Assembly (NCBI GenBank): GCA_021731815.1
Contig: JAKFWO010000029.1
Span: 1-64,000, forward strand
Length of the DNA: 64,000 nucleotides
Reading direction: 5' to 3'
Source: Hyphomonadaceae bacterium
GTDB lineage: Bacteria > Pseudomonadota > Alphaproteobacteria > Caulobacterales > Aquidulcibacteraceae
Part shown: piece after piece, positions 28,410 through 30,549 of the stretch
Layout of the letters: each line of letters opens with the position of its first letter
How positions within the stretch are numbered: position 1 is the first letter of the stretch
The notes under the pieces: generated by a model
Told to the model about the DNA's origin: nothing
What the model saw: only the letters and a program-made list of their open reading frames with translations
Databases searched by the model: none
Position numbers and translations under genes: made by a program

Positions 28410-28665
28410 GATCAATGCAGAACAGGCGCCGGGGGGCAATCCCCTGGTCCGGTGAACCGGGATGTCACACATCCATGGTGGCGTCTCTCGCCGGCGGCTC
28501 TTGTGCGCGCTGCCCCGCCATGCGACCATACCGCCTGCGAGCCCAGCCGGGCCGACGGGAAATTGCGCGTTCCAATTTTGTTGTGGGAATTTTCCCGGAA
28601 ATGGCCGCTGACGCAGTAACCATTTCCGACCAATGCCGTCCAATGATCCGTGGAAGGAAACGACG

Positions 28666-29424
28666 ATGGCGGCACCCGACATTGATCCTCTGTGGCTTGA
28701 GGACGTGGAACTGCTGTCGCGGGCTGCCGCGCGCGACAATATTGCCGCCCGCGCTCTGACCCTGCGCTATAACCAGCGCCTGTTCCGGGCGGCCTTTGGC
28801 GTTCTCAGGGACCGGGCGGATGCGGAAGACGTCGTTCAGGATGCGTGGCTCAAGGCGATTCGCGGATCCCACGGATTCGGAGGCAAATCATCGCTGGGGA
28901 CCTGGCTGACACGCATCGTGATCAATGAGGCGATCGAGCGCAAGCGTGCGCGGGCCCGGCGCAAGCGCGCTTTGGACGACAAGGATATCGTGGTGCTGAA
29001 CGAATATCGCGACCGTTTCATGAGCGCCCGGCAAGCCGAAACCTCCCCGGAAGCCGGGGTGGCGCGCGGCCAGATCGCGAGATTGCTCGAAACCGAGATC
29101 GCCAGACTGCCGGCGCAATATAGTTTGATCATCCTGCTGCGTGATGTCGAGGAAATGTCCATTGAGGAAGCTTCGGAAGCGTTGGGCATTTCGCGACAAT
29201 TGGTCAAAACCCGTTTGTTTCGCGCACGCCGACGGCTCCGCGAAGCACTCGGCCCCGAATTGCGCGAAGCCCTTAGGGACAGTTTCATCTTTGCCGGCGC
29301 GGATTGCGCCAGGCTCACCACGCGCGTCCTCGATGCGCTCGACGTGACTGGGGACCAGTCATCGCCGGGCAATCAGGTTTTTGCGCCTAACCAGAGGGAA
29401 ATGATCCATGACCAACCAAAATGA
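28666..29424 (+). CDS. ECF-type RNA polymerase sigma factor
   Basis: This 252-residue sigma-70 family protein has region 2 (DAEDVVQDAWLKAI and LGTWLTRIVINEAIERKR) and region 4 (LPAQYSLIILLRDVEEMSIEEASEALGISRQLVKTRLFRARR, cited in part). Region 3 is missing, as in group 4 (ECF) factors. A C-terminal extension of about 45 residues contains a Cys. The start at 28666 is preferred because GGAAGGA lies 8 nt upstream; an ATG 33 bp earlier is possible. The 3' end overlaps the ferritin-like gene by 17 bp. No anti-sigma factor gene is adjacent, so how it is held inactive is not visible. Confidence 0.92.
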   Translation: MAAPDIDPLWLEDVELLSRAAARDNIAARALTLRYNQRLFRAAFGVLRDRADAEDVVQDAWLKAIRGSHGFGGKSSLGTWLTRIVINEAIERKRARARRKRALDDKDIVVLNEYRDRFMSARQAETSPEAGVARGQIARLLETEIARLPAQYSLIILLRDVEEMSIEEASEALGISRQLVKTRLFRARRRLREALGPELREALRDSFIFAGADCARLTTRVLDALDVTGDQSSPGNQVFAPNQREMIHDQPK

Positions 29425-30016
29425 CTCTCCCGGGGCATCCCGCCGCGGGCTGCTGCTCGGCGCCGGACAGACCCTGTCCATCGCCGGGATCGCTGCCTTT
29501 GTCGGTGCAAGCCCCAGCGCTTTTGCCAAGGAATACAAGGGCAAGAACAAGGCAAAAAAAGGCGCGACAAGTGGTGATGTCGCGATCCTGAATGCGGCGC
29601 TCGCGCTCGAGCATGAAGGCATTGCCGCCTACACGCTCGCCGCCGGCAGCGGTCTGCTGACCCCGGATGTTCTGAAGCTCGGCGTCATTTTCCGCGGCCA
29701 CCATCAGGGCCACCGGGATCTCATGGCCGACGCCGTGCGCAAATTGGGCGGCACACCAGCCGAAGCGAAGCCCGATTCGGAATATGCCGTGTCGCTCAAT
29801 GCGGGCGCGCTGATGAATCAGACCGACGTGCTGAAACTGGCACTCAAGCTCGAGCGTGGCGCGACCAATGCCTATCTCAGCCTGATCCCGCAATTGGGCG
29901 TCGATTTCCACCAGGTGGCCGCACGGATGGCGGGCGATGAAGCCTTCCACGTCGCAATCCTCGCCAGCGCATTGGGCGAACCGGTTCCGGAAGCCGCATT
30001 GATGTTCGGAGCCTGA
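29408..30016 (+). CDS. Tat-exported ferritin-like domain protein
   Basis: This 202-residue protein has a twin-arginine-type leader (SRRGLLLGAG at 11-20, then a hydrophobic stretch to about residue 40, with ASPSAFA before the likely cleavage). The mature part is a four-helix ferritin-like domain (PF13668 type). Candidate metal ligands repeat as expected: E68 and E70, H98-H102, E149, then E178 and H181. Tat export suggests folding with metal before transport to the periplasm. It starts inside the sigma gene and ends 3 bp before the cytochrome gene. Iron binding or oxidation is a reasonable guess; a manganese catalase-like role is not excluded. Confidence 0.85.
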   Translation: MTNQNDSPGASRRGLLLGAGQTLSIAGIAAFVGASPSAFAKEYKGKNKAKKGATSGDVAILNAALALEHEGIAAYTLAAGSGLLTPDVLKLGVIFRGHHQGHRDLMADAVRKLGGTPAEAKPDSEYAVSLNAGALMNQTDVLKLALKLERGATNAYLSLIPQLGVDFHQVAARMAGDEAFHVAILASALGEPVPEAALMFGA

Positions 30017-30019
30017 GCC

Positions 30020-30520
30020 ATGACCGCCGCAAAGTGTATTTCGACAGCGTCTGCCGTCCTGACCCGTCGGTTCCCGCCGGGTTTGTCCAGGATGGGCTTT
30101 GCGGCGGTTTTCTTTCTCGCGGGCGGGCTTGGGACCCCGGCTTTCGCCCAATCCCCGCCAGCCATAGCGGGCGACGCCGTTCGCGGGGCCAAATTATACG
30201 AAGCCCGCTGCGAGGCCTGCCATTCGATCGACCATTCGCGTATCGGCCCATCGCATCGGGGCGTGGTGGGGCGCGCCTCCGCCGCGGTCAAGGATTTCAC
30301 CTATACGCCGGCGCTCAAAAAGCTGAAGGTCACCTGGACCCCGGCCAATCTTGACCGCTGGCTGGCCTCGCCACCGAAAATGGCCAAGGGGACTTCGATG
30401 GGCATCAATGTGCCCGTGGCCAAGGACCGGACCGACATCATCGCTTATCTGGCGACCCAAACGGATCCCACCGCCGCCGCAGCCAAACCCGCAGCGCCGG
30501 CCACGCCGACAAAGAAATAG
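30020..30520 (+). CDS. Small periplasmic cytochrome c
   Basis: This 166-residue protein has a long leader ending AFAQ (about residue 44). One class I cytochrome c domain follows, with CEACH at 64-68 and the likely axial Met at 127 (KGTSMGIN). A Pro/Ala/Lys tail ends the protein. It resembles c2/c550 carriers. The start codon lies 3 bp after the ferritin-like stop, so sigma factor, ferritin-like protein and cytochrome form one tight operon. It would sit in the periplasm with the ferritin-like protein, and electron transfer between them is conceivable. Confidence 0.9.
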   Translation: MTAAKCISTASAVLTRRFPPGLSRMGFAAVFFLAGGLGTPAFAQSPPAIAGDAVRGAKLYEARCEACHSIDHSRIGPSHRGVVGRASAAVKDFTYTPALKKLKVTWTPANLDRWLASPPKMAKGTSMGINVPVAKDRTDIIAYLATQTDPTAAAAKPAAPATPTKK

Positions 30521-30549
30521 CCGGGGAAATAGCCGGGGAAATAGCCGGG
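30514..30549. repeat. Three exact 12-bp units spanning the cytochrome c stop codon
   Basis: GAAATAGCCGGG occurs three times without a mismatch. Because 12 is a multiple of 3, every copy carries an in-frame TAG, giving three stop codons in series. Confidence 0.93.

Follow-up and report, generated by a model that had tools for sequence, protein, structure and literature searches.

Three closely packed genes, encoding an ECF sigma factor, a ferritin-like protein and a cytochrome c, raise the question of what the two exported products do together, and of what controls a sigma factor that has no evident anti-sigma partner. The genes lie in a stretch of 64,000 nucleotides of bacterial DNA (the window), and an earlier inspection of the letters (the sequence-only reading) had described them as a compact operon that could be a periplasmic iron-oxidation or redox-stress unit.

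Layout and conservation of the three genes

All three genes are on the forward strand between positions 28666 and 30520, and the spacing, strand and coordinates given in the sequence-only reading proved exact: the sigma gene overlaps the ferritin-like gene by 17 bp (29408-29424) and the cytochrome c gene starts 3 bp past the end of the latter. The features are as follows.

28615..28644, + strand: predicted promoter for the operon's own sigma factor, AGTAACCATT - N12 - CGTCCAAT (-35 at 28615-28624, -10 at 28637-28644)
28652..28660, + strand: likely ribosome-binding site of the sigma gene, GGAAGGAAA, read in the sequence
28666..29424, + strand: ECF29-type sigma factor (PRK11922 family), 252 aa, assigned by NCBIfam NF008888 and likeness to RpoE8
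29408..30016, + strand: ferritin-like protein (Ferritin_2) with a Tat-type export signal, 202 aa, PF13668
30020..30520, + strand: exported monoheme class I cytochrome c, 166 aa, PF00034

As the ribosome-binding site precedes the ATG at 28666, and the upstream in-frame ATG at 28633 falls within the promoter motif, we take 28666, on these sequence grounds, to be the right start of the sigma gene. The operon is flanked by purA upstream, on the same strand, and by the gene for the helicase HrpB downstream, on the opposite strand, so that no anti-sigma gene adjoins it, as had been claimed. About three tandem copies of AATAGCCGGGGA stand right at the end of the cytochrome gene, at 30516-30549 of the window.

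GTDB species genomes were scanned with a four-member ferritin alignment, which gave 164 relatives, and the best 80 of these 164, together with two near genomes and after removal of duplicates, make up a set of 82 loci. The triad of sigma, ferritin and cytochrome genes is present in the same order and on the same strand in 36 of these 82 loci (35 found automatically, plus one, L021, with sigma and ferritin in a single open frame), in hosts from the Alpha-, Beta- and Gammaproteobacteria and in one case on a Variovorax plasmid. The distance from sigma stop to ferritin start was between -23 and +40 bp in 31 of the 34 triads measured. The order thus extends far outside the window's lineage, the point on which the sequence-only reading had staked its proposal. 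Recurrence in 36 such diverse loci, together with a dedicated promoter (described below), places the arrangement far beyond chance. That the genes are unrelated and stand together through close kinship alone might be suggested by their scarcity near home, the ferritin-like gene being found in only two of the 61 closest sampled relatives of the window, its own genome included; this explanation is however refuted by ferritin identities of 43-73% over three classes with the same gene order and by the conserved motif, and we give it next to no credence.

The cytochrome gene follows the ferritin gene in 80/82 loci, even where the sigma gene is missing, which argues for a joint function of the two products. 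The window's genome itself carries on another contig a paralogous ferritin-cytochrome pair without a sigma gene (L002, contig C30), laid out as cupin-AraC regulator, SnoaL, ferritin-like protein, cytochrome c and uracil-DNA glycosylase, a layout that recurs in sphingomonads. The second positive genome among the 61 relatives, from another genus, has the same triad and an extra sigma-less pair. Six ferritin-cytochrome loci (L061-L066) are near-identical under the labels Novosphingobium, Erythrobacter, Hyphomicrobium (a sheep duodenum MAG) and Sphingopyxis, which may reflect recent transfer or misbinned MAGs.

The sigma factor, its promoter and its ECF29 relatives

The window's sigma factor matches Pfam sigma regions 2 and 4 and NCBIfam NF008888/PRK11922.1 at 213.9 bits (cut-off 204), the family to which RpoE8 (SMb20592) of Sinorhizobium meliloti belongs with 323 bits. 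The two proteins share 37% identity over 215 aa, the C-terminal F-A-G-x-x-C segment included, and in the sigma tree they fall in a joint clade of 42 sigmas apart from other ECFs. Within it, the window's protein belongs to a separate supported clade of 26, all from ferritin triads bar one divergent arrangement. On the strength of family, clade and promoter, the sequence identifies it as an ECF29-type sigma factor.

The C-terminal extension seen by the sequence-only reading is real, although it is mostly a family-wide feature, no more than the last ~25 residues being peculiar to the window. An F-x-G-x-x-C segment is present in the extension of 35/35 triad sigmas, and F209, G211 and C214 are among just 16 residues invariant across 34 aligned sigmas. 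In the AlphaFold2 model the extension forms an ordered short helix (residues 212-224), the tail from about residue 230 being disordered. A published table (PMC8999054, table 2) counts ECF29 with the ECF groups whose regulatory extension works by some other or an unknown mechanism. Detailed study of any ECF29 member was still lacking in 2018, when the regulation of RpoE8 was called a mystery; its 126-fold overexpression activated no target (PMC6180224). This fits a control that acts on the sigma protein, and the failure of RpoE8 at a perfect motif also leaves room for the motif being insufficient.

A de novo search recovered the motif GGGAACCTTT-N12/13-CRTCYAAT ahead of the sigma gene in 34/34 testable triads, with a mean of 22.7 bits as against 8.4-10.1 in refits to shuffled sequences, and this supplies the sigma target motif that the sequence-only reading had proposed to look for through a comparison of upstream regions. 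The window's site (28615-28644), whose -35 is the variant AGTAAC, ends 21 bp 5' of the ATG and scores 20.3 bits, and no other site in the 64 kb exceeds 13 bits; with the window left out of the matrix it scores 17.8 bits and the next best site in the window 11.8. It is also the best pattern match across the 2.53 Mb genome. No sigma-70-type promoter was found near the operon. The motif is absent 5' of sigma-less ferritin genes, the window genome's paralogue included, with the exceptions of L015 and L049, where it lies upstream of the ferritin gene and a PRK11922-family sigma gene adjoins divergently. L038 is a widely spaced triad in which the ferritin gene and a divergent folE each have their own motif. 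Presence at sigma-linked loci and absence from pairs is the pattern expected if the sigma factor drives the ferritin genes.

Whole-genome pattern searches returned no more than three sites in any genome (0-3), almost always at the locus, which indicates a dedicated sigma factor with a tiny regulon. A class-wide exact-motif search over an even draw by family found the motif in 0/385 genomes; this draw includes many small genomes, so that the result shows a sporadic system and not a wrong motif. Downstream of sigma-motif sites at L010, L114 and L090 (two sphingomonads are reported with extra motifs) lies a gene for a DUF2231 membrane protein, with a small membrane protein between site and DUF2231 at L010 and L114, and both proteins are, from their position, candidate further members of the regulon. 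In the sister genome, the end of a second contig (C242; L118) carries the same sigma promoter as contig C101, which may be a duplication or an assembly overlap.

Taken together, these data make it very probable that the operon is autoregulated through a switch consisting of the sigma factor alone. The three genes would form one autoregulated operon that is probably the main or only target of its sigma factor, the latter probably being controlled via its own C-terminal extension, whose one invariant cysteine stands out as the candidate sensor. The activated sigma factor would start transcription at the GGGAAC/CRTCYAAT promoter upstream of the sigma gene, so that the levels of sigma factor, ferritin-like protein and cytochrome would rise together.

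The closest known system is the RpoE8 operon (SMb20593, amcY), which has the same sigma family, no anti-sigma factor and the same promoter architecture, and likewise encodes a ferritin-like protein and a one-electron carrier. The RpoE8 promoter, with a -35 of GGGAAC and a -10 of GCATCCAA (PMC6180224), was located on pSymB, and the triad matrix gives the RpoE8 sites 26.3 and 24.0 bits. The gene after rpoE8, SMb20593, which was called a putative outer membrane protein in 2018 (PMC6180224), encodes a DUF4142 protein (2e-37) and is followed by a cupredoxin gene; DUF4142 has been described as ferritin-like and putatively periplasmic (PMC11317620). Rhizobium etli plasmids carry DUF4142, cupredoxin and sigma genes in this order, with a 28.6-bit motif ahead of DUF4142, and neither these rhizobial DUF4142-cupredoxin sequences nor RpoE8 entered the motif training. 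The effector pair is thus different, DUF4142 and cupredoxin there and Ferritin_2 and cytochrome c here, and it is the latter combination with an ECF29-type sigma factor that appears to be new. Since triads and rhizobial operons share sigma family and motif, the common ECF29-type theme, as far as sequence comparison goes, is a sigma factor with an exported ferritin-like fold and a soluble one-electron carrier, be it cytochrome c or cupredoxin. The ECF29 group thereby gains a shared output across the Proteobacteria, a sharp promoter motif and a specific residue to mutate, with Sneathiella, Hyphomonas, Phenylobacterium and S. meliloti as tractable hosts.

A more distant likeness is to the ECF26 system RpoE4-SorT-SorU-Azu2, where an ECF sigma factor drives a periplasmic redox enzyme, a cytochrome and a cupredoxin (PMC3511301, PMC6527743). 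That system has a membrane anti-sigma factor, a -35 of GGAAT and a -10 of CGTC, and there is no molybdoenzyme here; an ECF26/sulfite reading was rejected because ECF26 has anti-sigma partners, none of which adjoin here, and another -10. EcfG general-stress control of the sigma-less pairs was also set aside, the Sphingomonas melonis paper mentioning only DNA-binding ferritin-like proteins.

GTP cyclohydrolase and other recurrent neighbours

A GTP cyclohydrolase I gene adjoins 20/82 loci and is the most frequent further partner of sigma-linked loci. FolE (PF01227) adjoins one sigma-divergent locus besides 12 triads. An unrelated enzyme, FolE2 (PF02649; GTP cyclohydrolase IB), is next to two triads and five pairs (L054, L056-L058, L060, L041 and L046), its gene lying between sigma and ferritin genes at L041 and L046. 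On the ferritin tree the link requires at least nine label changes and so has been gained (or lost) repeatedly. In Sneathiella litorea the sole other perfect motif precedes a second, distant folE, and the window's genome has a site of 15.8 bits at a distance of 425 bp ahead of folE, compared with no more than 7.7 bits for control folE genes and 8.4 bits for folE in other triad genomes; with the site so far from the start, this only suggests folE as a target there. As a universal target in trans folE was rejected, with the motif at 1/23 copies in the 20 triad genomes lacking folE in cis. Housekeeping folE genes being mostly without the motif, folE is a frequent accessory target and not a fixed one.

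The sigma-less pairs adjoin a cupin-AraC regulator (22/47), SnoaL (11) and uracil-DNA glycosylase (11). The regulator was named by reading the sequences, and so was the glycosylase, for which PLSDB annotation was used as well. GTP cyclohydrolase and uracil-DNA glycosylase beside the loci suggest a damage-type stress. No recurrence of iron-uptake, Fur or siderophore genes was seen beside the loci.

The exported pair and its proposed reaction

The ferritin-like protein matches PF13668 (Ferritin_2) with an E-value of 1.2e-19 and 71.2 bits against a gathering cut-off of 24.7. The sequence contains a twin-arginine signal, SRRGLL, and such a motif is present in 79/82 relatives. Its AlphaFold2 model is a four-helix bundle (pLDDT 90.7), for which the nearest PDB structures are Rv2844, the tardigrade RvFeMP-1 and bacterioferritins (by Foldseek, and for RvFeMP-1 by sequence too). 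The candidate dimetal ligands E68, H99xxH102, E149 and E178xxH181 are invariant in 68/68 homologues. They match the classical E / ExxH / E / ExxH pattern at every position but one, the Glu that opens the helix 2 motif of canonical diiron proteins, which is His99 in all 68. With His99 in place of the bridging Glu, the chemistry of known diiron peroxidases should not be transferred to this site without reserve. The aligned counterpart of the catalytic Asp135 of RvFeMP-1 is Ala152, again in 68/68. Among the Ferritin_2 relatives found, those with characterized biochemistry are metabolite phosphatases only (PMC11616004), and RvFeMP-1 is the member of the family that has been studied most.

The partner protein matches PF00034 (Cytochrom_C) above cut-off and has a single heme motif, C64-x-x-C67-H68, with C64, C67, H68 and M127 invariant in four homologues. 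A PDB search returned class I cytochromes c (1.7e-21), and since the relatives are cytochrome cy (the nearest), cH, c552 and mitochondrial c, the sequence marks it as a normal electron shuttle and not an enzyme. Two exported products, one a predicted Tat substrate with an invariant candidate ligand set and the other a cytochrome with one heme, thus bear out what had been read from the letters.

We think it likely that these two proteins exchange electrons, judging from their near-universal pairing and from the interchange of cytochrome c and cupredoxin; the swap of cytochrome c for cupredoxin in rhizobia is what an electron-transfer partner would show. Such interchange is known for cytochrome c peroxidases. 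The ferritin-like protein would fold with its metals in the cytoplasm, pass through the Tat pathway to the periplasm and act there as a dimetal redox enzyme with the co-produced cytochrome c as electron partner. The likeliest flow would be from the respiratory chain to cytochrome c, to the dimetal site and to an oxidant such as hydrogen peroxide, making the protein a diiron analogue of the periplasmic cytochrome c peroxidase. The direction of flow is our judgement, as the anatomy fits either one. To the reading as a whole, an autoregulated envelope redox-stress operon with a peroxidase-like enzyme, we assign a probability of about 0.5. The proposed logic resembles that of the periplasmic cytochrome c peroxidase in carrier-fed reduction of peroxide and that of rubrerythrin in peroxide reduction at a four-helix dimetal site; in contrast with both, there is no sequence membership, and one heme and a separate dimetal protein are used here. 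Of the two roles offered by the sequence-only reading, redox stress is preferred, its enzymatic half as a proposal, and iron oxidation ranks below it; an oxidant-reducing and a metal-oxidizing protein would look alike. That reading had not noted the ECF29-type family, the rhizobial DUF4142-cupredoxin operons, the recurrent GTP cyclohydrolase neighbours, the exchange of Glu for His in the metal site or the sigma-less pair elsewhere in the genome.

A periplasmic metal oxidase, the iron-oxidation unit of the sequence-only reading, would oxidize Fe(II) (or Mn/Cu) at the dimetal site and send the electrons through cytochrome c to a terminal oxidase, for detoxification and not energy gain. The ferritin fold and metal ligands would suit such an enzyme, as would a dedicated class I cytochrome, nearest in the PDB to cytochrome cy, that can pass electrons to oxidases, and parallel ECF26 operons pair a periplasmic oxidase with cytochrome and azurin (sulfite; PMC3511301). 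However, helix 2 has His where a ferroxidase site has Glu, in 68/68 homologues, iron storage requires a cage of which there is no sign, genes for iron uptake, Fur or siderophores do not recur beside the loci, and the partners that do recur, GTP cyclohydrolase and glycosylase, are not metal genes, so that we regard a metal oxidase as unlikely. It is distinctly less probable that the protein is a metabolite phosphatase that cleans damaged periplasmic nucleotides while the cytochrome works elsewhere. This would follow the lead of RvFeMP-1 (PDB 8kce, 8w9k) and Deinococcus DRB0118, which, with the desiccation protein PCC13-62, share with the window's protein PF13668, a secreted four-helix bundle, a dimetal site and a link to stress, and for which phosphatase activity, oxidized nucleotides included, has been shown (PMC11616004). 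RvFeMP-1 ranks with the best PDB matches in sequence as well as in fold, and the GTP cyclohydrolase and glycosylase neighbours would fit nucleotide damage. Differences from these proteins are the Tat signal, the cytochrome partner, the sigma control and, with respect to RvFeMP-1, the ExxH in helix 4, His99 for the bridging Glu90 and Ala152 for D135 of its E-x-x-D motif, loss of which abolishes activity. The last two changes make phosphatase activity less likely, although DRB0118 also lacks that Asp and is yet active, and the cytochrome linkage in 80/82 loci would be left unexplained.

Similarly doubtful is a role of the ferritin-like protein as the sensor, in which, still unexported and with or without its metal, it would bind the sigma factor as an unrecognized anti-sigma factor and failed loading or export would set the sigma factor free. 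Tat substrates fold in the cytoplasm, the locus has no anti-sigma gene, the genes overlap or lie 1-40 bp apart in most triads, and in Hankyongella the sigma and ferritin sequences share one open reading frame. Against this, the occurrence of pairs without a sigma gene shows that ferritin and cytochrome can function independently of it, the sigma and ferritin genes are divergent in L015 and L049, and co-production explains the coupling equally well.

No account of a sigma-Ferritin_2-cytochrome c operon or of its link to GTP cyclohydrolase was found in the literature searched, which took in few subscription papers, so that this absence is weak evidence; that the unit is not well described, as the sequence-only reading put it, agrees with the little that we found. 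Should the peroxidase-like enzyme be real, oxidant defence by ferritin-like proteins would extend to a cytochrome-coupled branch in the periplasm, and the association with GTP cyclohydrolase would point to an unexpected role for pterin supply in the oxidant response. More broadly, we put forward only tentatively that ECF29-type sigmas form a widespread one-component stress system, in which the C-terminal cysteine or the unexported ferritin-like protein senses and the output is a new class of His-rich dimetal ferritin-like oxidoreductase in the periplasm, with cytochrome c or cupredoxin as electron partner and a functional tie to GTP cyclohydrolase and pterin supply.

Two loci depart from the common layout. 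In L021 (Hankyongella ginsenosidimutans, NZ_CP039704.1, 4224-5573) the sigma factor and the Tat-ferritin are encoded in one frame with no intervening stop, which may be a natural fusion, a loss of the stop codon or an internal start; a fused sigma-Tat-ferritin protein, if true, would be remarkable. In L093 (Acidithiobacillus sp. AMEEHan plasmid p2, 3478-5411) the ferritin-like gene stands behind a different ECF sigma gene with an annotated anti-sigma factor and has no cytochrome, the same effector being controlled there in another way.
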